Source: Verrucomicrobiaceae bacterium (lineage in GTDB: Bacteria > Verrucomicrobiota > Verrucomicrobiia > Verrucomicrobiales > V1-33). Taken from it: a DNA stretch of 33,441 bases. The DNA lies in NCBI GenBank assembly GCA_027486335.1, contig JAIXPK010000081.1, positions 1 to 33,441 on the forward strand, given 5' to 3'. Position numbers and translations under genes: made by a program. The notes beneath the pieces are model-generated. The model did not search any database, was not told the DNA's origin, and worked only from the letters and a program-made list of their open reading frames with translations. How positions within the stretch are numbered: the first letter of the stretch is position 1; each line of letters begins with the position of its first letter. Positions 2,594 to 29,076 of the stretch are shown in pieces.

Positions 2594-2601
2594 CACATCC
2601 C

Positions 2602-2972: not shown

Positions 2973-2979
2973 TCTCGGC

Positions 2980-3268: not shown

Positions 3269-3297
3269 TCACGGAATCGGCTCTGCGAGAAACCCCT

Positions 3298-7437: not shown

Positions 7438-7660
7438 CGTGGTTGCGGGTAAAGTGGTTGTCCGGGCCCGTTTCCCGCAGGGTCTGAGGCCTGGATGGCC
7501 GGGGGGGCCGGTGACACATGCGCCGTCTGTCCCGGGAAACGATAAAACATTTTGCACTTTCTTTGCCACACCCGTTCTTCAGGGCCTATGCCGCCCAACC
7601 GGATCCTCAAAAAGACCGGTTTTGCTCGCCATTTCCGGCCCGGATCGCATAATCGACGGC
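7438..7660. promoter_or_regulatory. Divergent promoter region between the SUMF1/TIG gene and the sigma/kinase genes
   Basis: This 223-bp spacer must hold promoters in both directions. An inverted repeat AACCGG (7597-7602) / CCGGTT (7616-7621) brackets an A-rich 13-base loop about 40 bp before the sigma gene and could be a regulator site. An A/T-rich patch at about 7540-7565 could serve the minus-strand gene. No clear -35/-10 pair is visible, as might be expected if an alternative sigma factor, perhaps the one encoded next door, reads them. Confidence 0.4.
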
Positions 7661-8251
7661 ATGAGCGATGTCACACGCCTCCTCAGTAACCTAGCCGCCG
7701 GAGACGCGGACTCGTTGAACCGGCTCTACGAGCAGGTCTATGCGGAATTACGGGCCATCGCGCTTCAGAAAATGGCTTCCGAGCGCCCCGGGCATACGCT
7801 GCAACCGACCGCGCTGGTCCATGAAGCTTTCCTTCGGTTGGGAGGCGGGGACCAACTCAAGTTTGACAACCGGGCTCATTTTTTTGCCGCTGCCGCCGAA
7901 GCGATGCGACGGATCCTCGTGGAGAGCGCCCGCCGCCATGGCCGTCTCAAACGCGGCGGCGACCAGGAACGCGTGGAGTGGTGCGAGGACCTCGTCGCCG
8001 CGCCGGTCGATAGTGAAAAACTCCTGCTGGTGGACGAGGCGCTCGATATCCTCGCCCGCGAGGACCCCATGCAGGCGGAGGTGGCGAAGATGCGTTATTT
8101 CGTCGGGCTCAAGCACCAGGAGATCGCCGATGCGCTGGGGGTCAGTGAATCGACCATTCGCAATCACTGGGCCGTGGCCAAAGTCCGGCTGTTCGAGCTG
8201 ATGAGCCCGCAATCCGCCCCGTCGCGTGCGCCTTCCGGGGAAACGCCATGA
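7661..8251 (+). CDS. ECF RNA polymerase sigma factor, PF07638/TIGR02999 type, 196 aa
   Basis: Directs RNA polymerase to a specific promoter set. The region-2 segment TLQPTALVHEAFLRL (about residues 45-59) is typical of the Planctomycetes/Verrucomicrobia/Acidobacteria group PF07638. Region 4 carries a helix-turn-helix, HQEIADALGVSESTIRNHWA, around 150-170. Length is normal and the ATG at 7661 begins the conserved N-terminus. No anti-sigma factor gene is adjacent; instead a membrane Ser/Thr kinase follows on the same strand, a pairing often seen for this group and consistent with control through phosphorylation. The kinase frame can be read back to a GTG at 8226 overlapping this gene, though a later start is preferred. 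Targets could include its own promoter and the divergent SUMF1/TIG gene; this is inference. Confidence 0.93.
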   Translation: MSDVTRLLSNLAAGDADSLNRLYEQVYAELRAIALQKMASERPGHTLQPTALVHEAFLRLGGGDQLKFDNRAHFFAAAAEAMRRILVESARRHGRLKRGGDQERVEWCEDLVAAPVDSEKLLLVDEALDILAREDPMQAEVAKMRYFVGLKHQEIADALGVSESTIRNHWAVAKVRLFELMSPQSAPSRAPSGETP

Positions 8252-8375
8252 GAACTGGAATGGAACCGAGGGCCGGAAAGGCAGAGAGCGGGAGTTTGGC
8301 TGTCCATGGTTTCTTTTGAACCGGAATTATCGTTTTCGGGCAGCGGCGGCGCATGTAGTTCCAACCAGACCAATT

Positions 8376-11300
8376 GTGAAAGACCTCAACGCAATTTATT
8401 GTGCCGCCCGGGAACTCCCCGGGGAAGACCGGCCCGCTTACCTGAACAAGGCCTGTGGGGGCGACCCTCTAATGCAGGCGCGCGTCATGAAAATGCTGTC
8501 CCTCGCCAACGAAGCGGAGGACTTCTTTGAGAGTACGGTGCGCGATCCCTCATCGAAAGGTTGGGAACCGGGGCGCGGCCCTGCCAATATCGATGGACCC
8601 GATGCGCACGACGGCACGGACGAAGTCGTGGGCCAGATGATCGGACGCTACAAAATTCTGGAGCGTCTCGGCGAAGGGGGCTGCGGCGTGGTCTATGTCG
8701 CCGAGCAAACTGAACCGGTGCGTCGGCGCGTAGCGCTGAAAGTCATCAAGCTGGGGATGGACACGAAGGCGGTGGTGGCACGGTTCGAGGCCGAGCGGCA
8801 GGCGCTGGCGATGATGGATCATCCCAACATCGCGAAGGTGCTGGACGGCGGGACCACCGATCACGGCCGTCCTTACTTCGTCATGGAGCTGGTGCGCGGC
8901 ATCCGCATCACCGACTACTGCGACCAGGCCAATCTTCCCCCCAGAGACCGGCTGGATTTGTTCATCAAGGTTTGTCAGGCCATCCAGCACGCGCATCAGA
9001 AAGGAATCATCCACCGCGACATCAAGCCCTCCAACATCCTCGTGACGCTGAACGATGGTGTGCCCGTCCCCAAGGTGATTGATTTCGGCATCGCCAAGGC
9101 GACCGAGGGCCGCCTGACCGATGCGACGATTTACACGCAGTTGCATCAGTTCATCGGCACTCCGGCCTACATGAGCCCGGAGCAGGCGGAGATGAGCAGC
9201 CTGGACATCGATACCCGCAGTGACATCTACAGCCTCGGGGTGCTCCTCTACGAACTGCTGGCCGGCAGCCCTCCGTTTGACGGGAAGGAACTGATGTCGC
9301 TGGGTCTCGACGCGATGCGGAGGACGATCCGGGAGAAAGAGCCGGTCCCGCCGAGCCTTCGGGTGTCGACCTTGCGGGGTGACAATCTCTCCACCACCGC
9401 TAAACGACGGGCGATCGAAGCACCCAGGTTGATCCATCTGCTCAAGGGCGACCTCGACTGGATCGTCATGAAGTGCCTGGAGAAGGATCGTGGACACCGA
9501 TACGAAACTGCCAACGGACTTGCCGCCGACCTGAAACGTTACATGGCGAACGAAGCCGTCGAAGCGAGGCCTCCGTCGGCGACGTATCGGCTGAAAAAGT
9601 TTGTCCTCCGCCACCCGCTCCAGTTAGCGCTCGCGGGGACCGTCGCCTTGCTGCTGCTGGTCGTCGGGGCGGTTGCATGGTGGCGGAATGAGCAGGCCAC
9701 CGCGCAGCGGGAGGCAAATCTCCAACAACAAATCGAGGACGAGCGGCGCCAGGCCGCCGACAACGACCGACTCGCGCGTAACAGCGAGGCCGTGGCCGCG
9801 CTTCTGAACCAGTGCGGAGATGCTCTTAAGGCAGGTGACAGGGCGAGGGCGAACCTCGCCATGGAAGCAGCCAGGAAACGCTCCGCCGAGGGCGGGGCCG
9901 ACCAGCAGACAGATCGAATCAGCCGGCTCGTGGCGGACCTGGATCTGGTGGCAGCACTGGACGCCGTCGATCAGTTCCGCTGGACCTACGTTGACAACCA
10001 CTATCCGGATCCAGCAGTCACCGCGACACGGTCCCGGAAAGCTTTGGAGCAGTTTGGAATCAATCCGGACGCCGTGTCGGTGGACGAAGCCGCAGCGCGG
10101 GTGTCGAAGTCGATGGCCCGCGAACGAATCGTGCCGGCTCTGGACCGGCTGCTGCAACATCAGAAAAACGCCGTCGTGCGGGCCCTGCTGGGCCGGGTGG
10201 ATGCCGATCCATACCGGGATGCCGTCCGGGATGCAGTCCTCGCCGGGGACGAGGGCGGAATCAGGGACCTTGCGGCACAGGACGACGCGTTATTGCAACC
10301 ACCGGGGTTTGCCGTTTTTATGGGCGAGACCAAGGTCATCGACGTAGAGCGCCGGCAGGAACTGTTGCGGGCGGCGTTGAGTCGGCGGACGACCGACGTG
10401 GATCTGCTGATGACGCTGGCGTTTACGTCCGCCTACCCGGCCTATCACCCGAAGAGATTGGCCGATCAGATGCGCTGGCTGCAGGCGGCCCTTGCTGCCG
10501 CACCCGGCAACGTGTCCGCCCACATCGATTTGGGCGCCACCCTGGCGGTCAATAACAATCCGGACGAGGCGATCACCTACCTTAAGAAAGCGATCGAACT
10601 CGATCCCGGGCTCGCCGGTTCACACACCAACATGGGAAACGTTCTCCATGCAAGGGGCCGGTTGAAGGAGGCCGCAGAATCATTCCAAAGAGCAATCGAT
10701 ATCGATCCATATTACGTTAGAGGCCACGTGAACCTCGCTTACACTTTGCTGGTTTCGGGCCGGCGGAAGGAGGGTCTCGAGTGCGCCCGGAAAGCCGTCG
10801 AAATCGCCCCGGACTCCGCCATGGCGCATTCCTGTCTCGGCGCGGCGCTGCAGGGCATGGGCCGCCTGGACGAGGCGGTCGCCTGCCAGCGAAAGGCGAT
10901 CGAACTTGACCCGAACTTTTCCAATGCCCACGCCGCCCTCGGCAGCGCACTGCAGCGCATGGGGCGTTTTGATGAGGCCATCGCCAGCCAGAGAAAGACA
11001 ATCGAAGTCGATCCGGCGTTTCCCAACGCCAGGGCCGACCTCGATAGGACGCTGCGGACCATGGAACAATTGGACGGGGACGTCGCACGTTTTCGCAAGG
11101 CCCTTGAGGAACGCCAGCCGCACGAGCCCGAACCGTACATGAAACTCGGCATCCTCCTCTGCGAGGCCAGGCGGGACTACGACGGAGCCATCCCCTGCTT
11201 CCAGAAGGCCCTCGAACTCGACCCGAAGTCCGCCCGCGCCCACACATGGCTTGGCGCTGCGCTGCATGGACTGGGCCGCTACAGCGAGGCCATCGCCAGC

Positions 11301-12650: not shown

Positions 12651-12776
12651 GCGCAGCGAATGCTCGACATCACCGGATCGCCACCCCCCAAACCCCACAA
12701 CCGCACAGCACGACCGACCCCGAAAAACCAACTCAGACCATCCATTCGCACATCGCTCGAATGCCCTGCATTCAAT

Positions 12777-13076
12777 TCACTCCGATGGGGTCATTTGAAC
12801 AATGAGTTCCTCAATAGGAAGCCCAACCACACACTCCATACCTCCAAAATCCCCCCCTCCGGTCACAAATACCGAGACCCGGCTATTAGAAAATCTCCAG
12901 ACGACCCGATACCTTCTGCCCTCATACCAGGACCACGCCGACGTTTCATACTCTGCCCCTTCCTGAATTTGTTTCCAGCGTCGGCGACTCACCTTGATAG
13001 TGCTGTCGGCATCGTCGTTACCCCACAACGCTTTCACTTCAACGCAGGCTCTGGTTTTCGTTGGTTCCTTTTTCAT
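12777..13076 (-). CDS. Small tryptophan-rich hypothetical protein, 99 aa
   Basis: ATG 13076 (MKKEPTKTRACVEVKALWG) is preferred to the longer frame starting at 13382, whose first 100 residues overlap the transferase gene and have Arg/Ser-rich shadow composition. From MKKEP on the sequence is protein-like: alternating charged and aromatic residues, KVSRRRWKQIQEGAEYETS, WSWYEGRRYRVVWRFS, and a C-terminal segment LPIEELIVQ, suggesting a small beta-rich soluble domain. No signal peptide or membrane helix. It lies 130 bp beyond the transferase stop on the same strand, so it may be the operon's last gene or independent. No family recognised; an immunity-like or structural role would be a guess. Confidence 0.55.
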   Translation of the reverse strand: MKKEPTKTRACVEVKALWGNDDADSTIKVSRRRWKQIQEGAEYETSAWSWYEGRRYRVVWRFSNSRVSVFVTGGGDFGGMECVVGLPIEELIVQMTPSE

Positions 13077-13206
13077 ATCCGGGACGCTGTTCACTGAACT
13101 TGATTTCGAGCATTCGTCGAGTCGCTTGATCCAGAGCCGAACCGCAGAGCTCAACCGCCCCGCGCTCCGACATCGACCGAAGCGACTTGTCCGGCTGCTG
13201 GAAGGA

Positions 13207-13956
13207 CTACCGCTTCGATTTCGGCTTCCGCCCATTCTCGACGACCAGAGCCCCGACAAAACCTTCCGGCAAGGGAACCTCGTGGATTTCCCAACATACG
13301 GCCTCGACATCTGCCCCAGGCAACCGCAGCAACTCCGCAGGCATCCCCGGAGCAAACGTGAACTCAATGTCCGAAATCTCATCGGTCAATCCTTCGCCAG
13401 TCGCCTTCAGATACGCTTCCTTGCGGGTCCAACCTGCGAAAAATGCCAGCTCCTGCTGCTCCGGCGGCAAAGCGAGCACCCCGCCCAACTCGCTGGCCGA
13501 AAAAACCCGCTCGGCAATCAACGGCCAATCCACCGTCCGCCCTGTCCATTCGACATCGATTCCCACTTCCCGTCCTTTGGCCAGCGCAATCGCCACCAGT
13601 GAGTTGGAATGAGCAAGATTGAATCGAATATCACCCACGGCGGAACCGCTGATCAACCGCGGCTTGCCGCGCGCTTCATACCCAATCGCAACCTCCGTCG
13701 GATCAACTCTCAAGGATCTTCCCAGAAGAAGTCGCAGCAACGCCCGCCCGAAAACAAACTCATTCCGCGCTTCCATCCCCATAAAACGCTCGGCCCGCAA
13801 TCGCTCTCGTCCGTCAAGCAACCGGGCATAGGCCGACATCTCCGCCGAATCGCCAGGCACCGTAGCAAGCCAAACCTGGACATCCTCGTTTCCCGGTGCC
13901 ACCGGTTTTGGATTCCAGGTGGCGATGTCCTTCCACTCATGACATGTGATTCGCAT
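13207..13956 (-). CDS. 4'-phosphopantetheinyl transferase, Sfp type, 249 aa
   Basis: Moves the phosphopantetheine arm from coenzyme A to the serine of carrier domains, converting them to the active holo form. The family's motif blocks are present: GKPRL then FNLAHS (113-117 region), GIDVEW (132-137, with the magnesium-binding acidic residues), and FAGWTRKEAYLKATGEGL (173-190, containing the W-x-x-KEA-x-x-K signature). Length is typical of Sfp/Gsp enzymes and longer than AcpS. The ATG at 13956 lies 45 bp after the NRPS stop on the same strand, so it is very likely co-transcribed. Expected clients are the three carrier serines in this operon: one in the ligase-carrier protein and two in the NRPS. 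Confidence 0.93.
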   Translation of the reverse strand: MRITCHEWKDIATWNPKPVAPGNEDVQVWLATVPGDSAEMSAYARLLDGRERLRAERFMGMEARNEFVFGRALLRLLLGRSLRVDPTEVAIGYEARGKPRLISGSAVGDIRFNLAHSNSLVAIALAKGREVGIDVEWTGRTVDWPLIAERVFSASELGGVLALPPEQQELAFFAGWTRKEAYLKATGEGLTDEISDIEFTFAPGMPAELLRLPGADVEAVCWEIHEVPLPEGFVGALVVENGRKPKSKR

Positions 13957-14001
13957 GACGATTCTACGGGGGATGCGCGCTCTCGCGTCCTTTCCCGGCG
14001 T

Positions 14002-17000
14002 CTATCCGGCATTGGATAGTACCACCTCAATTGACTTGACGAGTGATTCAATGTTTGTGGCTTCTAACATTGTTTCGTGCGTGCCGGATACATGGTGGAT
14101 GCTGACACCGCCATGAGCCATCTGTCTCCAGAAGGCATAAGGGCTTTTCGTCGATGTTTTGGCCGCGAAGAAATCGACGTGGCCGGAATAGACCTTCGGT
14201 CGGTAGAGTGCCGACGCCACTTCGTAGTAGTCCGGCTGGTCCTCTTGCTGAATATCCCGGTTGGATTCCGTGGGCAATTGCGTTCGTAAACGTTTGCGCA
14301 AAACAAAATAACTTAACGCGTTCCAACGACCGAGGAAATATTGGCCGCGCTCGGCCAGCGGCAATTCGCGCCAATGCCTAAGGTGGACTCCGAACCTCTT
14401 ACGAAGATGGGGGAGCAGCATCCAGAGATAGTGTTTCAGTGAGACATGAGAGGTCGCCTGGGTGTCTAACAATCCGAGAAAAGCTACGGTTCCGCCCTCG
14501 CTGCTCAATTCCTGAGCCACGGCGTAAGCGATCCAGCCGCCGAGAGAAAAGCCCGCAAGGTGATACGGACCTTCCGGTTGCAGGGAACGGATTTCCCGGG
14601 CGTAATGCCGTGCCATTTCCTCCACGCTGGTGTGGCGAGGTGCACGCCCATCCAGACCCACCGCCTGCACCCCGTAGATCGGACGATCATTTTTCATCGT
14701 CCGGGCCAAATCCAGGAAGACGTAAACATCCCCGCCCCGGCCATGAATCAGAAACAGCGGCGGTTTCGAACCCGACGGCTGCAATGGCACCAGTGAACTC
14801 CACGCCGGTGCCCAATTGTCATCAGTGAGCCGACGGGCAAAAGAAGCAATCGTCGGCGATTGGAACAATGTCGCTATCGGAATCTTCCGATCCAGAAGCT
14901 TCTCAATCTCCGAAGCCAATCTGGCAGCTTGAAGCGAATGTCCGCCGAGGTCGAAGAAATTGTCATTGCGACCGATGCCTGATCTTTGAAAGAGCCGTTC
15001 CCAGATTCGAATCAGTTCATGTTCGAGAAGGCTTCTTGCTTGATCCGATGGTTGGGCATCTTTGGAGGGATTCTGATCGGGTGCTGGCAATTTGCTGCGA
15101 TCCACTTTGCCATTGGGCGTCAGGGGTAACTGGTCCAGCCATACAAAGGCACTAGGCAGCATGTATTCCGGCAGCGTGGAACAAAGCCGCGCCCGCAGGC
15201 TGGCCGGGTCAGCCTGCGGTGACGCCATACCCACCAAATAGGCGAACAATTGTTTGTCCCCGGATTTTGCTTCGTTCACAACCACCACCGCGTCAGAGAC
15301 CCCAGGGCAACAACGAAGCGCGTGCTCAATCTCCCCCAATTCAATCCTATATCCGCGGATCTTTACCTGATGATCGAAACGTCCCAGGAATTCGATGGTC
15401 CCATCGGGCCGCCAGCGTGCGAGATCCCCGGTTTTATAAAGGCGCGCCTGGGGATCCCTGCTGAAAGGATCGGCGACAAACTTTTCTTGTGTAAGCTCAG
15501 GCGCGTTCAGGTAGCCGCGCGCCAGACCATCCCCGCCCGCGTGAAGTTCACCCGCCACTCCCGGCGGCACCGGCTCGCCTTGCTTGTCCAGGATGTAAAC
15601 AGTCGTCCCTGCAATCGGACGGCCAATGGGCACTGAAGCGCCGACTTGCGACGCCTCGTCGAGCACGCCACAACAGGTGAAGGTGGTGTTTTCAGTCGGG
15701 CCATAGCCATTGATGAGCCGGCCGTGTCCCGGCATCTCCAGATAGTCGCGCACCCTGGCGGGCGACAACACATCACCACCGGCCAGCAATTGCCGCACTC
15801 CCGCAAGGGCCGATGGTTGTAGTTCCACCATTTGGTGAAACAAAGCCGCTGTCAGCCAAAGCGTGGTTACCCCGTGCCCCGTGATGGCACTTCCAAGCTC
15901 GGCGAGGTCGAATGACTCGCTTGGGGGCAAAACCAATTTCGCTCCATTGAGCAGACTGCCCCAGATTTCGAATGTCGAGGCATCGAACGAAATCGGCGCG
16001 AATTGCAGCAGCACGTCAGCGGGTCCCAATTCGACATAATCAGCATCGACCACCAGACGGACAATCCCTCGGTGCGGCACCATCACGCCTTTGGGCTTGC
16101 CGGTGGTACCCGAAGTAAACATCACGTAGGCCAGATCCCCGGGTTTGTTGGTGGATGGCAAGTCTGATGAATCCGATCCTTCCAGACTTTCCAATAGATC
16201 TTCCAGTCCCAGGACTTGTCCGCCCAGCGAGGATTCTCCCGCCAAAGAAAAAATATGATCCCGCCACTGACGCTGGCAGAGAACCAAGGGGGCGTTAACA
16301 TCGTGCAATAGCACGCGGAGCCGCTCAAAAGGCAGTTTCGGATCCAGTGGCACATACGCGCCACCCGCCTTCAGGATCCCGAGCAAGGCGACGATCATTT
16401 CCACCGAACGTTCGGTGCAAAGTCCCACCGGCACATCAGGAGCCACCCCGAGAGATCGCAGATGATGCGCCAATCGATTCGCCCGGAAGTTGACTTCCTG
16501 ATAGCTCAGGCAGACGTCGCCGCACTGCAGCGCCACCGCTTCAGGGGCACGATTCACTTGTTCCTCAAAAATCTGATGCACGCACTTGTCACGCGGATAG
16601 CTCCTTCCGGTCTGGTTCCATTCCACCAGAATTCGGTGCCTTTCCGAATCCGGCATCAGACGTAACTGATCGATGGGTTTCTGCGGGGCTTCGGCAATCG
16701 CCTCCAGCATCTCCTTCAGATGCCCGGCCATCCGCCCGGCCTCCTCTTGCGTGAAGATGTCGCAGGCATATTCCAATTGGCAGTCCCAGCCCTGCTCCGA
16801 TGCCATCACGCTGAAGATCAAATCACACTTGCTGGTGTGGTTGTGCATCGGAACCAGGTAACCCTTTACTCGGTCGAGGATCAATTGGGGCAGAACCTGC
16901 TCCAAAAAAACAAACATCACCTGGTGTAAAGGCTGGGAATGAGCCTCGCGCTCCTTGACCGCGAGTTCCACCATCTCTTCAAAGGGAAGTCGCGCATGGT

Positions 17001-20000
17001 CGAAGGCATCAAGAACAGTTTGCCGCACCTGCCGCAAAATCTCTTTGAAACCCTGGTGGCCCTTCATCCTGCAGCGGATGGGCAAGGTATTGAGGAAGAA
17101 CCCGATGAGGTTCTGGAATTCCCTTCTTTCCCGCCCGGTGATTGGCGTGGCCACCACCAGGTCGTCTTGGCCGGTGAAGCGGTACAACCAAACCTGGTAG
17201 GCAGCCAGCGCGGTCATGAAGGAGGTCGCATTCTCCTCACGTGACAGAACATTGAGCCTCGCCGCCACCTCACCGGCGAGTCGAAAAGATTGGATAGCAC
17301 CCCGGCCGCTTCGATGAAGCGGTTTTGGAATATCGCAGCGAAGATCCAAATCCGATGGCAAATCCCGGAGTTGTTCGCTCCAAAAATCCCTTTGAGCCTC
17401 CATCTCCCGACCTCTCAGTCGTTCCCGCTGCCAGATGGCAAAATCAGCATACTGCATCGGCAATTCCGGCAACCCCGCCGATTCCTCGTTTCCATCGGCA
17501 TGGTAAAGGCAGCTTAACTCCTGAAAAAGCAGCCTCAACGACCACTCATCCATGATGCTGTGATGGAAAGTGCACGCGAGCACCTGATCATCCTCCGCCA
17601 ACTGGATCCAGAGGATCCTCCACAGGGGTGCCTCGGCCAGATCGAAGGCTCGGCGCGCCTCCTCTTCCAGGACTTGCTGCATTACGGACGCCTGCTCCGG
17701 GATCGCGCTGGAACGCAAGTCCACCTCTCGCCAAGGCAGGGGAAAATCTTTCGCGTCGGCCACTCGCTGCACCAGATCTTCCCCCTGTTTCACTAACGCC
17801 GCCCGCAACACCTCATGGCGCTCTAAAATCACACGCAAGGATCCCCGCACACACTCCCGATTCACACGGCCAGAAAGGCGGACGGCTTTCGGGACATTGT
17901 ATGCCGCCGGATCCGGCAGCATCTGCTGCAGCAACCACATCCCCTGTTGGGCAAAGGACATTGGAAAAGGTCCCTGCCGGTCGGCTCTCCGAATTGGCTC
18001 GCTGCCTTTCAAATCGCGGCCGCAAAGCAGGGATTCAATCCGTTCAGATAGACTTTCAATGGTGGGATTGTCAAAAATCCATCGCAGGGGGATCTCGAGA
18101 TTGAGCAAATGCTTTACCCTCGAGCAGATCGCCACTGCCAGTAGGGAGTGTCCCCCAAGATGGAAGAAGTTGTCGTGGATGCCCACCCGCTCACGGCGCA
18201 GCGCTGTTTGCCAGATTTCGACCAGCGCTCGCTCCGGTTCATTGCGAGGGGCGACATAGCCTGCTTCCACAACTTCCAATTCTACCCCTTCCAGCCGCTC
18301 CAAGGCGCTCCGATCCACCTTTCCGCCCGGTGTCAGGGGGAAAGCGGGAACCATCAGGAAGCGCGATGGGATCATATGATCCGGCAGTTTTTCCTCCATG
18401 AAACGGCGCATTCGCCGATCTGCCGGATCGAAGTTGCCATCCACCACAAGATAGGCCGCCAGGCACTTGCCTCCGGTCGCGGCAGCATTTGCCAACACCA
18501 CGGCTTGTCGCACTCCGGCACAGGTCGCCAGCAATCTCTCAATCTCTCCAAGCTCGATGCGATAGCCGCGGATCTTCACCTGATAGTCCACTCGCCCGAG
18601 AAACTCGATAGTTCCGTCCGGCAACCATTTTCCGCGATCTCCCGATTTGTAGCAACGATCTTCTGGACCGCACCCAAACGGATCGGCTACAAAACGCGCG
18701 GACGTTTCGTCCGGGCGGTTCAGATACCCTCGCGCCACACCCTCACCACCAAGAAGCAATTCCCCCGGCACTCCAACACCCACTCGGCGCATTTGCGGAT
18801 CGACCACATAAACCCGGGCGTTTGGCAGTGGACGACCCAAGGGCACCGTCGTCTGGTGGTGCGCGGGACGCGGATGTTCAATTTCATGCGCCAGCACGCC
18901 CACGGTCGTCTCTGTCGGACCGTAGTGATTGATGATCCGACATTCCGGCGCCATTTTCTGGATCCGCTCCAGCATCCTCCAACTCGATGATTCGCCGCCC
19001 AGCACCAGGACACGCCGCGGGATCAGGTCGGGCGCCTGCCCCGGCGAGACCGACTGGAGCAGCATCTCCAGATGCGAAGGCACGATTTTAACCACATCAA
19101 TGGTCTTGCTGCGGAAGTAGCTTGCCAACGCGTTGGGATTGGTACCCCGTTCCCGGGAAATGACGTGCAACGCTCCTCCTGTGACCAAAGAGGGAAACAA
19201 TACTGTGTGCCCAAGATCCGTGGCAAAGGACGAAACCATCGCATAGCGCAAAGCCGACGGCAAAGACAGTCGCTCGACAATCCCGTTGACGTAGTTGACC
19301 AGGTGTCGATGCTCAATGAGCACCCCCTTGGGCCGCCCTGTCGAACCAGAAGTGAAAATGGCGTAGGCCAGATTCGCCGACCCAACGCCGCTAAACGGAT
19401 TCGTGGAGTTTTCGCTGGCAAGGCTTGGCCAGTCCGTATCGAGGTTGAATATTGGTGGGAGCCTCATTGACAGGTGCTCCACCATTGCCGATCGCGTTAT
19501 CAGAACTGTCGGATTGGTTTCCTCGATCATCGCTTTCAGGCGATCGGGCGGGCAAGTCGCATCAAGCGGCACATAGCCACCGCCAGCCTTCAGGATGCCA
19601 AGCAATCCCACCACGAGCTCAAGCGAGCGCTCGGCAAAAAGGACGACCAGTTTTTCCGGGCCTACACCAAGTCCACGCAAGTGGTGCGCTAGCTGGTTGG
19701 CCCGGGAATTGAGTTCCAGGTAAGTCAGCGATTGATCCTCGAACACTACCGCCACCGCGTCCGGAGTGCGTTCCACCTGCGCCTCGAACAACTGGTGAAC
19801 GCCCTTGTCACGCGGATACTCCCGCTCGGTCTGATTCCATTCCACCAGAGGTTGCTGCGGTTCTTGCGCAGAAAGCTCTGGGATATCCGCAAGAAGTTGC
19901 CCGGGATCGCTGGCGATGCTTTCGAGCAACACATGCCAACGTCCCAGCATTCGCACCACGCGGTCGGCGTCAAAAAGGTCGGTGTTATATACCGCCGTGG

Positions 20001-21372
20001 CCATCCATCCGGCGCTGACCTTCTCCACCGCGAGGGAGAAATCGAACTTGGCGGTGTGTGTCTCGGTTCTCCAGGGCGCGGTCAGGATACCGGGTAATTC
20101 TAGCGACACCGCGGGAAAATCCTGCAAGGCGAAGGTTACATCAAATAGCTTGGCTGCACCCGCGTCGCGGCGGAGTTGCAACAGTTCCACGAGCCGCTCA
20201 AACGGCATATCCTGATGGGCATATGCCTGAACAGCGGCCTCCTTCACGCGGCTTAACACTTCTCGGAAGGTGGGTTGGTCGGCCAGGCTCGTGCGCATGA
20301 CCAGGGTGTTGACGAAAAATCCGACGAGAGCCTCGACCTCCACACGCTGGCGGTTGGCAATGGGCACGCCGACCAGAAGATCCTCTCGACCGGTATAACG
20401 GTGCAGCAAGACTTTAAACGCGGCCAGCAGGATCATGAAGAGGGTTGCGCCCTCCTCCCGTGCCCGTGCCATGAGCCTCGCAGTGAGTTCGGAATCAAGG
20501 TGAATCTCAGCCCGGGCCCCTCGAAAGGATTCTTTTGACGGACGGGGTCGGTCTGATGGCAGATTCAATGGTTCCAGTTCGCCCGCGAGTTGTGCCTTCC
20601 AGTATTCGGCCTGCTTCTCAAAAACACCGCCGGACAACTGGCCCTCCTGCCACGCGGCATAGTCCACGAACTGCACGGGCAGCGGTGGCAACGGCATCCC
20701 AATCCCGGCGGCGCGTGCCGCGTAGCAGCCGCCCACCTCCCGCCAGAGATTGGAACGCGACCAACCGTCCGAGATGATGTGGTGCAAGACGAAGCACAAC
20801 ACATGTTCTTCCGGTCCGAGGCGGGCCAAAGCCACCCGGAAGCCGGGGGCCGCCGCCAGATCGAACGTGCGGCTCGCCACCTCCTCCAAATAGCGATTGG
20901 CCGCCGCCGACCGCTCGGTCTCGGGCACTGCCTGGAAGTTCTCTGCTTCGAAAGCAAACTCCGCACCCGATGCGACATACTGGAGTAGTTGCTCGCCTGC
21001 CATGACAAAAGTTGTCCGCAAGGTGTCGTGGCGGCGCACCACATCGGACACCGCACCTAGCAACAACTCCTCGTCCAAGGGGCCGATTAGGTGAAACGAT
21101 GATGGAATCACATAGACCGGCAACCGCTCCGAATACTCGTGCAAAAACCACATCCGTTGCTGGCTGTGAGAAGCGGGATAAACCGTGACTTGCCCGGTGG
21201 GTTCGTTTGGTCGGCCGAATGCCTCCGTCCGCAGGGGAACGGCGGGCACCATGGCCAGATACTCGGAGGAGACGGCGGCATCGCGACCGGCGGCGAGTCT
21301 TTGATCTAGCAACGCGCGTTGTTTGGGGCTCAGACGGGCAAGCCGTTCTCTCAGGTCCGTCGCTTCGCTCAT
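14002..21372 (-). CDS. Two-module nonribosomal peptide synthetase C-A-T-C-A-T-TE, 2456 aa
   Basis: Start ATG 21372 overlaps the upstream stop as ATGA, so translation is probably coupled; the frame extending to 21519 lies inside the upstream gene. Order: N-terminal helix (SEATDLRERLARLSPKQRAL), C1 with HHIISDG at 197-203, A1 with TSGSTGRPKG near 670, T1 (LGGHSL near 1071), C2 with HHSIMDE at 1270-1276, A2 with TSGTTGKPKG near 1750, T2 (LGGHSL near 2141), and a type I thioesterase with GFSLGG near 2275 and GTHE near the end. Ungapped alignment to GrsA as remembered gives pocket codes DLTKVGHVGK for A1 (nearest the Asp codes) and DAFWLGGTFK for A2 (nearest Val). No epimerase or methyltransferase domain, so L residues are expected. 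Beginning with a C domain implies an acyl donor from upstream, probably the ligase-carrier protein. C2 has Glu in place of the usual Gly in HHxxxDG. Confidence 0.96.
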   Translation of the reverse strand: MSEATDLRERLARLSPKQRALLDQRLAAGRDAAVSSEYLAMVPAVPLRTEAFGRPNEPTGQVTVYPASHSQQRMWFLHEYSERLPVYVIPSSFHLIGPLDEELLLGAVSDVVRRHDTLRTTFVMAGEQLLQYVASGAEFAFEAENFQAVPETERSAAANRYLEEVASRTFDLAAAPGFRVALARLGPEEHVLCFVLHHIISDGWSRSNLWREVGGCYAARAAGIGMPLPPLPVQFVDYAAWQEGQLSGGVFEKQAEYWKAQLAGELEPLNLPSDRPRPSKESFRGARAEIHLDSELTARLMARAREEGATLFMILLAAFKVLLHRYTGREDLLVGVPIANRQRVEVEALVGFFVNTLVMRTSLADQPTFREVLSRVKEAAVQAYAHQDMPFERLVELLQLRRDAGAAKLFDVTFALQDFPAVSLELPGILTAPWRTETHTAKFDFSLAVEKVSAGWMATAVYNTDLFDADRVVRMLGRWHVLLESIASDPGQLLADIPELSAQEPQQPLVEWNQTEREYPRDKGVHQLFEAQVERTPDAVAVVFEDQSLTYLELNSRANQLAHHLRGLGVGPEKLVVLFAERSLELVVGLLGILKAGGGYVPLDATCPPDRLKAMIEETNPTVLITRSAMVEHLSMRLPPIFNLDTDWPSLASENSTNPFSGVGSANLAYAIFTSGSTGRPKGVLIEHRHLVNYVNGIVERLSLPSALRYAMVSSFATDLGHTVLFPSLVTGGALHVISRERGTNPNALASYFRSKTIDVVKIVPSHLEMLLQSVSPGQAPDLIPRRVLVLGGESSSWRMLERIQKMAPECRIINHYGPTETTVGVLAHEIEHPRPAHHQTTVPLGRPLPNARVYVVDPQMRRVGVGVPGELLLGGEGVARGYLNRPDETSARFVADPFGCGPEDRCYKSGDRGKWLPDGTIEFLGRVDYQVKIRGYRIELGEIERLLATCAGVRQAVVLANAAATGGKCLAAYLVVDGNFDPADRRMRRFMEEKLPDHMIPSRFLMVPAFPLTPGGKVDRSALERLEGVELEVVEAGYVAPRNEPERALVEIWQTALRRERVGIHDNFFHLGGHSLLAVAICSRVKHLLNLEIPLRWIFDNPTIESLSERIESLLCGRDLKGSEPIRRADRQGPFPMSFAQQGMWLLQQMLPDPAAYNVPKAVRLSGRVNRECVRGSLRVILERHEVLRAALVKQGEDLVQRVADAKDFPLPWREVDLRSSAIPEQASVMQQVLEEEARRAFDLAEAPLWRILWIQLAEDDQVLACTFHHSIMDEWSLRLLFQELSCLYHADGNEESAGLPELPMQYADFAIWQRERLRGREMEAQRDFWSEQLRDLPSDLDLRCDIPKPLHRSGRGAIQSFRLAGEVAARLNVLSREENATSFMTALAAYQVWLYRFTGQDDLVVATPITGRERREFQNLIGFFLNTLPIRCRMKGHQGFKEILRQVRQTVLDAFDHARLPFEEMVELAVKEREAHSQPLHQVMFVFLEQVLPQLILDRVKGYLVPMHNHTSKCDLIFSVMASEQGWDCQLEYACDIFTQEEAGRMAGHLKEMLEAIAEAPQKPIDQLRLMPDSERHRILVEWNQTGRSYPRDKCVHQIFEEQVNRAPEAVALQCGDVCLSYQEVNFRANRLAHHLRSLGVAPDVPVGLCTERSVEMIVALLGILKAGGAYVPLDPKLPFERLRVLLHDVNAPLVLCQRQWRDHIFSLAGESSLGGQVLGLEDLLESLEGSDSSDLPSTNKPGDLAYVMFTSGTTGKPKGVMVPHRGIVRLVVDADYVELGPADVLLQFAPISFDASTFEIWGSLLNGAKLVLPPSESFDLAELGSAITGHGVTTLWLTAALFHQMVELQPSALAGVRQLLAGGDVLSPARVRDYLEMPGHGRLINGYGPTENTTFTCCGVLDEASQVGASVPIGRPIAGTTVYILDKQGEPVPPGVAGELHAGGDGLARGYLNAPELTQEKFVADPFSRDPQARLYKTGDLARWRPDGTIEFLGRFDHQVKIRGYRIELGEIEHALRCCPGVSDAVVVVNEAKSGDKQLFAYLVGMASPQADPASLRARLCSTLPEYMLPSAFVWLDQLPLTPNGKVDRSKLPAPDQNPSKDAQPSDQARSLLEHELIRIWERLFQRSGIGRNDNFFDLGGHSLQAARLASEIEKLLDRKIPIATLFQSPTIASFARRLTDDNWAPAWSSLVPLQPSGSKPPLFLIHGRGGDVYVFLDLARTMKNDRPIYGVQAVGLDGRAPRHTSVEEMARHYAREIRSLQPEGPYHLAGFSLGGWIAYAVAQELSSEGGTVAFLGLLDTQATSHVSLKHYLWMLLPHLRKRFGVHLRHWRELPLAERGQYFLGRWNALSYFVLRKRLRTQLPTESNRDIQQEDQPDYYEVASALYRPKVYSGHVDFFAAKTSTKSPYAFWRQMAHGGVSIHHVSGTHETMLEATNIESLVKSIEVVLSNAG

Positions 21373-22220
21373 GAATGGATCCGGTTCAGGCTGCGGTTCA
21401 GAACCTCGTTGCACGCTGCCAGGGTATCTCCCTTTGCCACCGCCGATGCTAACGATCCATCCGCCACGATGAGATTGGCCAAGGCGTTCCTCACCGCAGA
21501 TTGTGCCGCGAAGAGACATGGGGTGCTGTAAATGACCAGACTGGCACCATTATCCCCGAGTTCCTCCAGACGGCATACGGGAGACTTGCCACCGGCAATT
21601 TGGTTGAAAACCACAGGGCAATCCACCAGCGATTTGATTTCCTTGAGTACTTCGAGCGAACGGATGCCATCTGCCAAAACTGCGTCGGCGCCGGCCTCGC
21701 GGAAGGCAACCACCCGGCGCCTGATATCATCCAAGTCTGTGGCATCGGTGCGGGCCACGACAAACAATTCCCGGCGACAGGCTAAAACCGCCCGCAATTT
21801 CTCCAGATATTCATCCAGCGGCAAGATCTGTTTTCCATCCATGTGTCCACACCGGCGGGGGCGGGCTTGGTCCTCAAGAACGACCCCACAGGCTCCGATG
21901 CGTTCCAGCGATTTGGCAACATGGCAGGCGACGGCGGTGTCGCAGTAACCATCGTCGATGTCCACCAGCAGATGTTGGTATGGCAAAACCGCCCTCACCC
22001 GGCCGACAAAATCCAGCAGGTCGGACCATGCGATGAACCCCTCGTCGGGCAGCCCGTAGTGGCTGGCGGAAAACCCGAATCCGCTGATGAACAGGGCGTC
22101 ATGGGTTTCCGCCGCCAGCAAGGCACTGAAAACATCATAGACACCAATGAACGGAACCAGATCCCCACGTTTGAGGCGCTGACGCAACGTCTTTCCTTTC
22201 GATGAATCCAAAGTGTCCAT
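21369..22220 (-). CDS. Isocitrate lyase/PEP mutase superfamily enzyme, 283 aa
   Basis: TIM-barrel enzyme of the family that includes methylisocitrate lyase, oxaloacetate acetylhydrolase, dimethylmalate lyase and PEP mutase; members make or break C-C or C-P bonds beside a carboxylate using Mg2+. Visible signatures: FISGFGFSASHYGLPDEG near 44-61 (substrate loop), VDIDDGY near 86-92 (metal site), and EDQARPRRCGHMDGK near 115-129. The RRCGH loop with its cysteine is the lyase type. PEP mutase instead has EDK followed five residues later by NS, so phosphonate formation is unlikely. The ATG at 22220 lies 3 bp after the ligase gene stop, and the stop overlaps the NRPS start (ATGA), so all are one transcript. 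It may supply the acid loaded by the ligase or alter the acyl group. Exact substrate unknown. Confidence 0.88.
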   Translation of the reverse strand: MDTLDSSKGKTLRQRLKRGDLVPFIGVYDVFSALLAAETHDALFISGFGFSASHYGLPDEGFIAWSDLLDFVGRVRAVLPYQHLLVDIDDGYCDTAVACHVAKSLERIGACGVVLEDQARPRRCGHMDGKQILPLDEYLEKLRAVLACRRELFVVARTDATDLDDIRRRVVAFREAGADAVLADGIRSLEVLKEIKSLVDCPVVFNQIAGGKSPVCRLEELGDNGASLVIYSTPCLFAAQSAVRNALANLIVADGSLASAVAKGDTLAACNEVLNRSLNRIHS

Positions 22221-22223
22221 AAA

Positions 22224-24068
22224 TTAATCGAGCAATTTTGCGCGCTCCTCGGCACTCAGACGCTCCAGGGCTTTTGCCAGGTCATCGAGTTCTTTTTCCG
22301 CCTGAATACGCTCCAGTTCGGAGGCAAGCAGGGCAGGGGTCGGCATTCGGAATAGCAGAGGTGTCGGCAGTTCAAGCGACAGGCTCCGACCTAGCCGGGT
22401 GAGCACTTGAGTGGCACGCAGGGAATCTCCACCAAGCATAAAAAAATTGCCCTGCCTTCCGGCCGGCGGGCAACCGAGCACCTCGCTGAACATGTCCACC
22501 ACACGCTTTTCCATGGGTGATGCCGGTTCTTCATACGCGGTTGCTAAAAACGCACCCAACTGCCGGGCCAAACCGATGCGCTGGATCTTTCCCGTGGAGC
22601 CTCTTGGAATGTCCGGCACTACGATAATCCGGCTCGGGGCTTTGAAGGCCGGCAATCGATCAAGCACAAAACCCCTTAAGTCCGCTTCCGTGCAGTCAGC
22701 GCCCGGGTGCAATACAACAGCAGCGACCACATCCTCGCCCAGCGATGGGTGAGGGACGGCGAATGCTACCGCTTGCCGAACCATGGGATGAGCCAGCAAT
22801 GCCTCATCCACCTCACGGGGAGCTAATTTTTCTCCGCCGCGGTTGATCATTTCTTTCAGTCTTCCGGTGATAAAAAGATAGCCGTCCGCATCAAAGAAGC
22901 CTTGGTCACCGGTGCGCAACCAACCCAGATGGAACGCCTGGGCGTTGGCTTCGGGATTCCCATGGTAGCCGGGGGTCACATTTTCACCACGGATGGCAAT
23001 TTCACCAGTGATTCCAGCTTCCATCTGATCCCCCGCTTCATCCAAAACGGCGATAGCAGGACCAGCGGGAAGCCCCACACAACCGGGTTTTCGGAGGCGC
23101 GGTGGCAAAGGGTTGCTGGCCATCTGGTGAGCAGCTTCCGTCATGCCATAGGATTCGATCACCGGCACCTGGAAAAGATTCTCAAGACCCATCATCACTG
23201 ATGGAGGCAACGCGGCAGATGAAGACCTTATGAAACGGAGGCTGCTTTCGATGGTGGATCGGCCTTGGCCTTGCAAATGCGCCAGAATCGCCTGATGCAT
23301 CGTCGGCACCGCGGAATACCAGGTCGGTTTCCAGGTTTCCAGCCAACCGGGAAAATCGTCCGCGTTAAAACCCGTGGTGCAAATCGTGCCGCCACCCGCC
23401 GCCAGCGATGCCAGCACACAAGCCACTAGGCCATGGATGTGGAAAAGCGGCATTACATTGAGGCAAAGGTCCGATTCCGACAGTTCCAAGGTGCTCCCGA
23501 TATTCCGGGCCGATGCGCAAAGATTTCTCTGGGTGAGGGGAACCATCTTCGGGCGCGAGGTCGTGCCCGAGGTATGCAGCACGAGAGCCACATCATCTGC
23601 TTCGGCAAGGCCGGGTTGCGCGGCCCCGGTGCCGGGAGTGCCGGAAAGATCAAAACTCCCGTTGGGCCGCAGGGCTAGCTCAATCACAGGCACCCCGAGC
23701 GCAGTGGCCGCCGAGCGGGCCGGTGTTTCATCCCCCACCATCACGATGAGGCTCTTTGCCCGCAAGTCCCCGAGATAAAAGGCGAACTCTTTCTCCAAAT
23801 AGGCAGGGTTGAGAGGCGCGGCGATCGCCACGCAGGCGACAGCCAGAAAAGCCACCGCCAGCTCGGGTCCCTGCGGCAACACGATGGCAACCCGGTCGCC
23901 TCGGCCGATGCCAAGGTAGTTCATCTGCTCCAGCGTCCGGTGAACTTGCTCCCAAAGCATCTGGTGGCTGAGCGGTTCGACACCCTCGCTGGCAATGGCC
24001 TGTCTGGAGGTATATCGAGCCGCGTTTTTCGCGAGCAAAGCGGGGATTGAGCAGTCGCCTTCTGTCAT
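22224..24068 (-). CDS. Acyl-AMP ligase fused to a carrier protein (oxalyl-CoA ligase-like), 614 aa
   Basis: Probably activates a carboxylic acid with ATP and loads it on its own carrier domain, giving the starter for the NRPS. The ANL core has LHTSGTTSRPK (163-173), WYSAVPTMHQ, RFIRSSSA, ESYGMTEAAHQMASNPLP and GRLKEMINRGGEK, ending with a C-terminal lysine in STGKIQR. These phrases are almost those of the AAE3/Pcs60 oxalyl-CoA ligase group as I remember it, and unlike amino-acid A domains. A carrier domain follows, with attachment serine in LGGDSL (about 544-549), then a terminal helix ALERLSAEERAKLLD resembling the N-terminus of the NRPS. First gene of the operon: ATG 24068 has 185 bp of upstream spacer. 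Oxalate as substrate is inferred from similarity only; other small dicarboxylic, keto or acyl acids are possible. Confidence 0.93.
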   Translation of the reverse strand: MTEGDCSIPALLAKNAARYTSRQAIASEGVEPLSHQMLWEQVHRTLEQMNYLGIGRGDRVAIVLPQGPELAVAFLAVACVAIAAPLNPAYLEKEFAFYLGDLRAKSLIVMVGDETPARSAATALGVPVIELALRPNGSFDLSGTPGTGAAQPGLAEADDVALVLHTSGTTSRPKMVPLTQRNLCASARNIGSTLELSESDLCLNVMPLFHIHGLVACVLASLAAGGGTICTTGFNADDFPGWLETWKPTWYSAVPTMHQAILAHLQGQGRSTIESSLRFIRSSSAALPPSVMMGLENLFQVPVIESYGMTEAAHQMASNPLPPRLRKPGCVGLPAGPAIAVLDEAGDQMEAGITGEIAIRGENVTPGYHGNPEANAQAFHLGWLRTGDQGFFDADGYLFITGRLKEMINRGGEKLAPREVDEALLAHPMVRQAVAFAVPHPSLGEDVVAAVVLHPGADCTEADLRGFVLDRLPAFKAPSRIIVVPDIPRGSTGKIQRIGLARQLGAFLATAYEEPASPMEKRVVDMFSEVLGCPPAGRQGNFFMLGGDSLRATQVLTRLGRSLSLELPTPLLFRMPTPALLASELERIQAEKELDDLAKALERLSAEERAKLLD

Positions 24069-24253
24069 GGGGTGATGGATATTGGAGAGGTGGTTCGGGT
24101 CTTAGTGAGCAGAGGCCCGGTCAGCAACACTGATCTAAGCGGGTTTTGAATTTTAACAAACAAGCCTCGGGAGTCCGGTCGGTAAATCACTGCTAGAAAT
24201 TTACTCTCTGCTGGAGGCCCCTGAAAGAGCCATTGGGTCGGACCTCATTCGCG
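24069..24253 (-). promoter_or_regulatory. Upstream region and possible promoter of the NRPS operon
   Basis: The 185-bp spacer should carry the promoter for the four-gene minus-strand operon. The only A/T-rich patch is at 24133-24163. Read on the minus strand it has TTGTTT (24163-24158), TAAAAT (24155-24150) and TTAGAT (24138-24133). TTGTTT with TTAGAT has a 19-base spacer, longer than ideal, so the assignment is weak. No operator palindrome or riboswitch is apparent, and no strong Shine-Dalgarno precedes the ATG. Confidence 0.3.
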
Positions 24254-24487
24254 TCAGATTAAGGCCCGGATCCCTGATTCCACGGGGAATTGGCGTCGCC
24301 GTTTGTCCCGTATGACGTGGTCGGAGTAGGGATCGAAATCGAAGAGGGCGGCGATGTTCGGGGCTTTGATGAACTGCCCGGCCAGCAGGTCGTAGAGCTT
24401 TTCATGGCTCAGCCGCGCCCGGCCCACCACGACACCGATCCCCCCAACTGGTGGGCGATTGGCATCAACAAGCACCTCGCGTACCAT
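24254..24487 (-). CDS. Small unknown ORF coupled to the antitoxin-like remnant, 77 aa
   Basis: Starts at ATG 24487, whose last bases overlap the TGA of the preceding ORF (TGATG), the coupling usual for toxin-antitoxin pairs. It opens VREVLVDANRPP, reminiscent of the first strand of a PIN-domain toxin (LVDAN) with its acidic residue. The rest, including SHEKLYDLLAGQFIKAP and FDFDPYSDHVIRDKRRRQ, does not continue as PIN and lacks the later acidic residues. It could be a deleted or frameshifted VapC-like toxin joined to unrelated sequence, or an unrelated small protein. Function not recognised; expression uncertain. Confidence 0.35.
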   Translation of the reverse strand: MVREVLVDANRPPVGGIGVVVGRARLSHEKLYDLLAGQFIKAPNIAALFDFDPYSDHVIRDKRRRQFPVESGIRALI

Positions 24488-24732: not shown

Positions 24733-26385
24733 CTACCTACCTCCCAGATACCCCCGCGCCAGCACCTCGCCCAATGCCCTGATCCCCGCCGCCGTGATCA
24801 CCAGTTGTTCCACCTGCACCGGCAGATCGAACGCCTTCAGGTGAATCACCCCCCGGTCCTCAGCCGCCAGCGCCGCAATCTTCCCCGTCACATCCATCCG
24901 ATTCAGACCCTTCGAATCCGTCGGCGGCTGCTGACTGACATACCATTTCAACCCGGGCAGCCCCAGATCCTCCCGGCTCTTCACCACCATCGCCTGCAGC
25001 CACTTCGCCGCATTGCTCCGGTATGGCCAGAACGACATGTCGTTCTCTCCCGCATGATAGAAAAGACCCGCCACCTCCACCTCGTGCCCCTTCGCTTCCA
25101 GTTCCTTCACCGCTTCCCTCACAAATGCGATGAACTTCGGATACACATGCCGCGACACCGCACTCGTGCCCTCCGGCGTCCAGTCGTTCATCTGTGATCC
25201 ACTGTCCGTGAACTTCGCCACCGCCACATTCCCCCCCACCTTCCCCTCCAGCGCCGCCCCTAAACTCAACTCCGGTCCAAACGTGCCATAGAACCCCGCT
25301 GGTCCCAACGGCTCCCACCCGTCCGACACCTTGTACCCGCCCCCGACGCTGTACTTGTACGCCACCCGCGGGTTGTCCTCGGCTAGCTTCTCCCCACCCG
25401 GCATCCGCTTCAGATCCTCCGTGAACGCCCGCTCCCCTTCCATGTTACGGTGCCCCGCCAGCACAAACAGCTTCACCTTGCTCCCCTTCTCATACGGCCA
25501 CACCTTCAGCGGCCGCGCCGTCCCTACCGGTTTCCCGATCGCCCGCAGATAAGCATCCGCATGATTCACCCCATGCTCCAGCTGCCCCAGCGTCCCGTAA
25601 TGATAGTGCAGCCCCTCGCCCCCGCCGATCTCCACCGCGTCGTGTGACGTCGGCACATAATCCGCTAGCTCGTCCGCATCCGTCACCGCCCGCTGCCCGG
25701 TCCGGATCGCATCCATGTTCTCCCGGTTGTCCATCCCCCACACCGTCTTCGTGCAAAGCTCACCCACATAAAACCGCAACCCCGGCACCCCGAGGTCCCG
25801 CCGCCAGCTCGCCACAAATCGCTTCAGATTCTCCCCGTACGCCGGCCGGAACTTCTCATCAAACATGTCGTTCTCACCCTGATGCCACATGAATCCCTCC
25901 ACCCGGTAAGGCACCTTCCGCTTCTCCAGCTCCGCCAGCGACGACCGCACCAACTCCAGCGCCAGCGGATAAAGCTTGAACCCCGTCGGTTCGTCAGGAT
26001 TCCAATCCCCGCCCAGCGTCGTCCCCCCGGCCGCACACTTGATGATCGCCACCGGCGCTCCCGTCTCCTGCACCACCCGCCTCGCAAAACTCAGCTCCGG
26101 CCCCACCACGCCACCAACCGGCTGCAGCGCCACCCAACCCTTCGACTCCTCCTTCTCCTCACGCCCCAGATTGTACGAAAACAACACCTTCTCCTGCGGC
26201 GCATCCAGTCCCGCAAACGGCGGAAACTTCCCGATGTCCTTCACCTTCGAATCCGACCCCACCATGTTCGACTGCCCGGCAAAGATGAACACCCTGACCG
26301 TTTTCACATCCGCATCACCAGCCGCACTCGAACGCACCGCCGGCAGCACCAGCAGCAACCCAACAATCAGACGCAGGCTTTTCAT
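24733..26385 (-). CDS. Secreted tandem SASA-family (carbohydrate esterase 6-like) protein, 550 aa
   Basis: Start ATG 26385 is chosen because a purine-rich site GGGGGA lies just upstream and a signal peptide follows (SLRLIVGLLLVLPAVRSSAA). SASA domains are SGNH-type esterases that remove acetyl groups from sugars. Domain 1 (about 30-285) keeps the nucleophile block FAGQSNM (Ser39), HQGEND (168-173) and a likely catalytic histidine in GEGLHYH (about 258-262). Domain 2 (about 303-550) keeps the fold phrases LAGHRNMEG and HAGENDM, but its nucleophile position is Arg313 and its end lacks a matching Asp-x-x-His, so it is probably inactive and perhaps binds substrate. Last gene of the minus-strand operon, 93 bp after the DUF6288 gene; fits deacetylation of a polysaccharide outside the cytoplasm. 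Confidence 0.9.
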   Translation of the reverse strand: MKSLRLIVGLLLVLPAVRSSAAGDADVKTVRVFIFAGQSNMVGSDSKVKDIGKFPPFAGLDAPQEKVLFSYNLGREEKEESKGWVALQPVGGVVGPELSFARRVVQETGAPVAIIKCAAGGTTLGGDWNPDEPTGFKLYPLALELVRSSLAELEKRKVPYRVEGFMWHQGENDMFDEKFRPAYGENLKRFVASWRRDLGVPGLRFYVGELCTKTVWGMDNRENMDAIRTGQRAVTDADELADYVPTSHDAVEIGGGEGLHYHYGTLGQLEHGVNHADAYLRAIGKPVGTARPLKVWPYEKGSKVKLFVLAGHRNMEGERAFTEDLKRMPGGEKLAEDNPRVAYKYSVGGGYKVSDGWEPLGPAGFYGTFGPELSLGAALEGKVGGNVAVAKFTDSGSQMNDWTPEGTSAVSRHVYPKFIAFVREAVKELEAKGHEVEVAGLFYHAGENDMSFWPYRSNAAKWLQAMVVKSREDLGLPGLKWYVSQQPPTDSKGLNRMDVTGKIAALAAEDRGVIHLKAFDLPVQVEQLVITAAGIRALGEVLARGYLGGR

Positions 26386-26478
26386 AGATTCCCCCACCTT
26401 CTCCCCGCTTCCTCCCTCCCGCACAATCCAATTCACTCAACCCGCTGCACCTCTTTCCACCCCACCCACCACCGCTCG

Positions 26479-28896: not shown

Positions 28897-29076
28897 CGGT
28901 TTGTCTTCGTGCTCTGTTGAAATGTCATTCACCGAACCGTCCCCCGGAATCTCTCCCGGAACCCTCCCGCCCAGTTCGCTTCCTCCATCCTTACCAGCAG
29001 CTTCCCGAAAACAAAACCTTTTCCTCCGACACCCACCTGCCCGGCCTCCACCCTGGTCAACCCCATCCGCCCAGCC

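Follow-up and report, generated by a model that had tools for sequence, protein, structure and literature searches.

Acyl-AMP ligases acting together with a carrier load the starters in aryl acid siderophore and lipopeptide systems of the nonribosomal peptide synthetase (NRPS) type. Oxalate is usually seen as waste, acid or chelator, and N-oxalylglycine mimics 2-oxo-dicarboxylates and blocks 2-oxoglutarate enzymes. In the available excerpts of PMC9485241, the AAE of yeast and Arabidopsis is described as strict for oxalate and PanE of M. extorquens as an oxalyl-CoA reductase, and Oah and AAE are used to supply oxalyl-CoA. In those of PMC9935904, beta-ODAP of grass pea is formed from oxalate by AAE3 together with BOS, and those of PMC12141560 name N-oxalylglycine as a crystal ligand. 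An oxalyl starter of an NRPS is described neither in the titles and abstract openings searched, a scope with subscription literature mostly outside it, nor in the excerpts of PMC12751119, PMC12141560 and PMC12542777. Here, a four-gene operon from Verrucomicrobiaceae bacterium is characterized (assembly GCA_027486335.1, contig JAIXPK010000081.1, positions 1 to 33,441; this whole stretch is referred to as the window). It is probably a compact cluster that converts oxaloacetate to oxalate, forms an oxalyl-carrier and makes N-oxalyl-Asp-Val, with oxalate as the NRPS starter.

All four open reading frames (ORFs) were confirmed on the minus strand of the window. The ligase gene (22224..24068, 614 aa) encodes an acyl-AMP ligase that resembles oxalyl-CoA synthetases and is fused to a carrier, as judged from Pfam (AMP-binding, AMP-binding_C and PP-binding), PDB matches and a pocket-residue table. 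Its adenylation (A) domain (~22554-24068) and peptidyl carrier protein (PCP, ~22320-22505) are predicted to serve as oxalyl-AMP ligase and oxalyl-S-carrier. After a gap of 3 bp follows a C-C lyase of the PEP-mutase/isocitrate-lyase superfamily with an RRCGH loop (21369..22220, 283 aa; Pfam PEP_mutase/ICL), assigned from Pfam, PDB, residue table, tree and model; its predicted reaction is oxaloacetate to oxalate and acetate. The lyase stop overlaps the ATG of the NRPS gene (14002..21372) in ATGA. The longest NRPS ORF begins at 21519, but the start is likely the ATG at 21372-21370, giving 2456 aa with a docking-like N-terminal segment, DLRERLARLSPKQRALLDQRL. With two Condensation, two AMP-binding, two PP-binding and one Thioesterase match in Pfam, the order is C-A(Asp)-T-C-A(Val)-T-TE (condensation, C; carrier, T; thioesterase, TE). 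These domains and the carrier serines mark a type I NRPS. The carrier motifs of the operon are GGDSL and twice GGHSL, both C domains have the HHxxxD motif, and the TE (14005..14808; Pfam, motif) has GFSLGG. Motif-anchored reading gave the codes DLTKVGHVGK for A1 (18289..19812) and DAFWLGGTFK for A2 (15073..16593), whose positions and meanings we take to be those for Asp and Val, respectively. Among the best 25 of 108 NCBIfam matches, the named-product NRPS models AusA, SolG, MxcG and EntF stay below cut-off. After a further 45 bp lies a Sfp/HetI-like 4'-phosphopantetheinyl transferase (PPTase) gene (13207..13956, 249 aa; Pfam ACPS with AASDHPPT_N; HetI model 153 bits, below the 370-bit cut-off), a family fit for carrier priming.

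The four genes travel together as a cassette. Of 37 genomes taken as relatives, two have the lyase at E 1e-50: the window's own and G387, which is of the same genus. G387 carries the entire block (window 13223-24441) in a different place, on contig C358; its genes are 92-97% identical in DNA to those of the window, and within 20 kb its flanks do not match the window's. The window's flanks, 12717-13218 on one side and the DNA from 24723 on the other, instead have their counterparts on contig C22 of G387, where the gap at the window's site (L144 722-10262) holds a type I restriction-modification system (HsdR 790.5 bits, cut-off 550; HsdS domain). This arrangement points to an exchange site and to the operon as a unit of its own. 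The dN/dS values between window and G387 are 0.20 for the ligase, 0.19 for the lyase remnant, 0.22 for the NRPS and 0.33 for the PPTase; a block kept in a same-genus genome at such values is more than a chance assembly. The G+C content of the block is 58.3% and that of the rest of the window 63.0%. A promoter scan found two sites, not above the mean of 3.5 in shuffles. Outside the block, a SASA-family esterase and a DUF6288/HEAT protein adjoin it (24733-28932).

A shorter version occurs in a metagenome-assembled genome (MAG) of the Acidobacteria (L037), with a 70% identical lyase followed by C-A(Val)-T-TE and a PPTase. The C domain of L037 and C1 of the window are sisters (100/99), and the A domain of L037 is nearer to A2 than to A1, as if the Asp A-T-C unit had been gained in the window or lost in L037. 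A ligase search of this genome gave only 29-30% identical matches at E 1e-25. An earlier note on this DNA had described an operon of four genes on the minus strand, joined at 3-bp, overlapping ATGA and 45-bp junctions, with C-A-T-C-A-T-TE architecture, self-contained and lacking exporter or regulator. The ORF coordinates, Pfam domains and motifs agree with this description and the block consists of the four genes only; its recurrence in G387 and the lyase-NRPS-PPTase order in the Acidobacteria MAG fit the self-contained character, since in neither of the two is the NRPS split from its flanking genes.

The nearest solved relatives of the ligase are oxalyl-CoA synthetases (5ie0, E 6.5e-125; 6qjz, 4.7e-122; 8aff, 1.6e-106), which we take to be plant and yeast enzymes. 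A fourth oxalyl-CoA synthetase structure follows at E 5e-79, then an NRPS at 3.5e-61. The ligase belongs with the AAE3 group, AAE3 and Pcs60 being nearest among solved structures and sharing its pocket residues. The aligned set of His, His, Ser/Thr, Arg, Ser/Cys, Ala/Ser and His, which an alignment with the NRPS A-domain code and not a bound structure puts in the pocket, is common to 14 of 14 rows (window, nine lyase-linked relatives, AtAAE3, Pcs60, the M. bullatum ligase and a Rhodobacteraceae plasmid ligase). It is complete in none of the 12 control rows, among which L098 ends before most positions and H4 (42% identical) differs at the last two only. The excerpts of PMC7700444 and PMC8099913 give no oxalate-binding residues. 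A fatty-acyl starter was rejected because of this kinship to oxalyl-CoA synthetases.

The genomic context of stand-alone relatives points in the same direction. Upstream of the M. bullatum ligase (57-58% identical), an oxalate/formate antiporter gene is found (TIGR04259 629.7 bits, cut-off 335), with FAH-like and PanE-like frames, named by reading, in between. A relative from the window's phylum (G257, 50-51%) has such an antiporter ~1.2 kb away on the opposite strand (516.8 bits). Behind the Rhodobacteraceae plasmid ligase (54-55%) lies a gene of the PanE family, and a PanE-type gene adjoins two cyanobacterial ligases (L136 and L137; the PanE of L136 was confirmed). In the ligase tree, a single group of 17 rows (84/97, not starred) unites NRPS-linked and oxalate-context ligases with the long-branched controls H3 and H4; its internal order is mostly poorly resolved. 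The window's genome (93% complete) has no oxalyl-CoA decarboxylase above cut-off, which weighs against a catabolic role, nor does any of the nine genomes searched, this one included. From kinship and context, a ligase specific for oxalate is a well-supported prediction.

The pairing of ligase and lyase recurs in other phyla. Lyase loci were taken as the best 80 of 379 relatives from a scan of genome contigs. Nine of them (L040, L041, L042, L043, L046, L047, L052, L059, L092) contain an oxalyl-type ligase (54-60% identical), and none of these genomes has a second ligase match at E 1e-80. The ligase adjoins the lyase in eight, with one NRPS gene between them in L092. Seven of the nine have an NRPS; L059 ends at the lyase, and L043 shows no NRPS but a TE fused to the ligase-carrier. 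The nine loci belong to Cyanobacteriota, Pseudomonadota, Planctomycetota and Gemmatimonadota, and with the window's phylum as the fifth, ligase and lyase occur together in five phyla and beside NRPSs in four. As the search was led by the lyase, co-occurrence among the nine is biased. Ligase-led searches found 14 ligase genomes among 292 of the cyanobacterial phylum and three among 387 of the window's phylum (17 in total, including G000 and G411). Judging from open frame or sequence, five have a carrier (G411, G592, G690, G000 and G059, the carrier frame of G059 being broken), and in three of these (G411, G690 and G000) the lyase is adjacent; G690 adds a further ligase-lyase pair with NRPS (L135). 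Nine other ligase genomes lack the lyase, four within wide flanks (G513, G425, G671, G257) and five within ~1.5 kb; G545, G521 and G698 are outside this count.

In two clusters, L046 (a MAG of Gammaproteobacteria) and L152 (G059, of the window's phylum), a thiamine diphosphate (ThDP) enzyme is encoded beside ligase and NRPS. The two enzymes are 42% identical to each other and both carry an N-terminal docking-like segment resembling those of the NRPSs. They score 342.9 (L046) and 275.9 (L152) bits with the oxalyl-CoA decarboxylase model, both below the cut-off of 557, and the best solved relatives of the L046 enzyme are oxalyl-CoA decarboxylase and 2-hydroxyacyl-CoA lyase. A docking-tagged enzyme of the oxalyl/formyl-thioester class is what an oxalyl-carrier would predict.

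The lyase itself lies near petal death protein (PDP) and oxaloacetate acetylhydrolase (OAH) within its superfamily. A profile search ranked PDP, 4iqd, DMML and OAH, in this order, as the nearest solved relatives, and in pairwise comparison with four references OAH is highest (33.7%). The residues D87, D89, E116, C124, G125, H126 and R157, presumably the metal ligands and the Cys-Gly-His loop, are kept in the window lyase and in all 82 rows of the lyase table, from which L066, L089 and L096 are absent because their lyase gene was missed in gene picking. An AlphaFold2 model (mean pLDDT 78.7) shows the superfamily barrel. The methylisocitrate lyase PrpB model TIGR02317 is the best NCBIfam model, yet reaches only 156.5 of 354.4 bits, and the PEP mutase model TIGR02320 reaches 71.7 of 319.55 bits. 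A phosphonate reading of this PEP-mutase-like gene was rejected because the loop has the Cys-Gly-His typical of the lyases and TIGR02320 scores far below its cut-off. Oxaloacetase is the likeliest activity because of the partner ligase, not from the lyase sequence alone, and support for this substrate is weaker than for the ligase specificity.

Other genes accompany the lyase and ligase elsewhere. In ten loci termed context B (L035, L036, L038, L039, L044, L045, L048-L051), the lyase stands beside a different AMP ligase (26-30% identical), with an 86-90 aa carrier-sized gene in four and a related ~460-aa membrane protein in eight. The latter reads as MBOAT-like (no Pfam match for the one tested), and context B is possibly a Dlt-like surface-acylation cassette. 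In the window's phylum, the next best match of the lyase is 36% identical; the context-B locus L049 is from Chthoniobacterales. Directly after actinobacterial lyases, a small secreted-looking protein (ITVIDNS...GSDHDGSAVD) is encoded in L030, L053, L057, L071, L081, L095, L097, L107 and L112; it was considered as a carrier and discarded, as it has no Pfam match and looks secreted. Thirteen other or overlapping lyase loci share a nearby gene; the single representative tested, that of L076, encodes an SBF-like transporter. A formyltransferase-like domain is located within the L040 NRPS (944-7459), between C domains, and L041 and L042 have a similar gap as seen from layout alone. Sulfotransferase-family genes are found near the oxalyl-type ligase clusters L046 (17740-18492) and L133 (9998-10894).

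Several observations count against a pathway from oxaloacetate to an oxalyl-capped dipeptide. The position of the OAH Ser (Ser in 3lye), which we assume to mark oxaloacetate specificity, is Gln207 in the window lyase and in 81 of 82 relatives, and because of this Gln the enzyme is filed only as OAH/PDP-like, not as OAH. A Glu and a Thr invariant in all references are replaced by Asp in 82 of 82 subfamily rows; the clade-specific residues are Asp90 and Asp184 (82/82) and Gln207 (81/82). A long stem (100/100) sets the subfamily apart from OAH, PDP and MICL; its separate clade of 36 rows comprises 14 actinobacterial lyases, 10 of context B and 12 that are NRPS-linked or the window's own, and the window lyase does not group with OAH, itself a long branch. 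In G387, the lyase (L118 11448-12020) lacks 93 codons in frame, including the catalytic loop; the deletion lies at an 8-bp repeat and leaves 190 aa, while the other three genes are open, and it may be real or a fault of the draft assembly. The ligase clusters L133 and L152 have no lyase (in L152, none within 20 kb). In 70 of the 80 lyase loci (10 context B, 60 Actinomycetota), no such ligase is found in the DNA fetched, the remaining one, L037, being cut off at a contig end. Such features would fit a reading in which the ligase loads oxalate from general metabolism or the environment, while the lyase forms a different compound or has its role elsewhere. This alternative is unlikely; the pairing of ligase and lyase across phyla and the retention of all core catalytic residues argue against it.

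Further points of this kind concern the chemistry of the starter. A structure search was unable to settle the lyase substrate, with MICL, DMML and OAH tied at Z 29-30. The acetolactate synthase model scores the ThDP enzymes about as high as the decarboxylase model does (341.8 bits for L046, 281.2 for L152), and the L152 carrier frame (8116-10138) breaks after GGDSL, by a draft-assembly fault or in reality. The PanE-like gene of L137 may serve pantothenate because a PanB-like gene, named by reading, is nearby. The starter could be glyoxylate, malonate, pyruvate or succinate, with the lyase acting on 2-methylisocitrate, dimethylmalate or isocitrate-like substrates, as the equal fold similarity of MICL and DMML and the prpB model, best though far below its cut-off, would allow. 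Such a starter is improbable: similarity and pocket of the ligase fit oxalyl-CoA synthetases, not malonyl-CoA or other ligases, oxalate antiporters lie beside two stand-alone relatives, and the ThDP partners are decarboxylase-like. As to the NRPS, the C2 motif is HHSIMDE, not HHxxxDG, and a specialised starter C domain was sought in the C-domain comparison and not found, the first C domains forming no clade of their own (6 changes versus 6.3 shuffled). Decay or inactivity of the cluster in the window's lineage, to which the G387 lyase deletion, the C2 motif and the promoter scan might point, is the least probable reading, given dN/dS of 0.19-0.33, open frames in both genomes and intact carrier serines and TE motif.

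For the favored pathway, the lyase would cleave oxaloacetate to oxalate and acetate, and the ligase would adenylate oxalate and load it onto its own fused carrier. The PPTase, judging from its family, would prime all three carriers. C1 would then join oxalyl to Asp and C2 add Val, and the TE would free the chain by hydrolysis, most simply as N-oxalyl-L-Asp-L-Val (calculated C11H16N2O8, 304.0907, [M-H]- 303.083). Mimicry of 2-oxo-dicarboxylates or metal chelation is a plausible use of this product. The earlier note had expected an acyl-dipeptide with Asp and Val. Architecture and predicted residues stand, the latter by the A1 and A2 codes; the starter and the role of the lyase had been left unspecified, and the evidence for oxalate changes the chemistry to an N-oxalyl instead of a fatty or aryl acyl group.

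More broadly, the oxalyl-carrier may represent a starter class of bacterial assembly lines that spans five phyla or more; the Acidobacteria relative, in which the ligase was not seen, would make a sixth if it belongs here. It would often come with its own lyase and cap peptides as 2-oxo-dicarboxylate mimics, with docking-tagged ThDP enzymes acting on the carrier-bound oxalyl thioester in a side branch; this wider proposal is about as likely as not. The predicted caps are N-oxalyl-Asp-Val here and N-oxalyl-Val in the Acidobacteria relative. If true, NRPS chemistry would gain a further starter unit from the combination of a dedicated oxalate-forming lyase and a module that loads oxalyl groups. 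N-oxalyl amino acids and peptides, the structural type known to block 2-oxoglutarate enzymes, would be expected from it, and bacteria would have a little-explored way to small oxalate-capped peptides. The ligase-carrier is easily searched for in genomes.

Compared with known systems, the ligase domain is 44% identical to AtAAE3 and 46% to part of Pcs60 and has the same aligned pocket residues, but it is fused to a carrier and coupled to an NRPS, whereas AAE3 and Pcs60 serve CoA-dependent catabolism. The lyase shares superfamily, Cys-Gly-His loop and metal ligands with OAH and PDP, but belongs to a separate clade with Gln, Asp and Asp in place of their Ser or Met, Glu and Thr. As in aryl-acid siderophore and lipopeptide systems, a ligase-carrier would present a C domain with a carboxylic acid as starter; here, however, the predicted starter is a C2 dicarboxylate, for which the operon would also encode the synthase. 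In grass-pea beta-ODAP (dencichine) formation, as far as described in the excerpts available, AAE3 likewise activates oxalate, which is then placed on an amino group, but in a plant, on a free amino acid acceptor, by a BAHD protein and with no NRPS. The closest parallel to the proposed pairing of oxaloacetate hydrolase and oxalyl-CoA synthetase is the engineered E. coli with Oah and AAE in the excerpts of PMC9485241, which differs in being man-made and in using a CoA thioester and a BAHD acceptor step.

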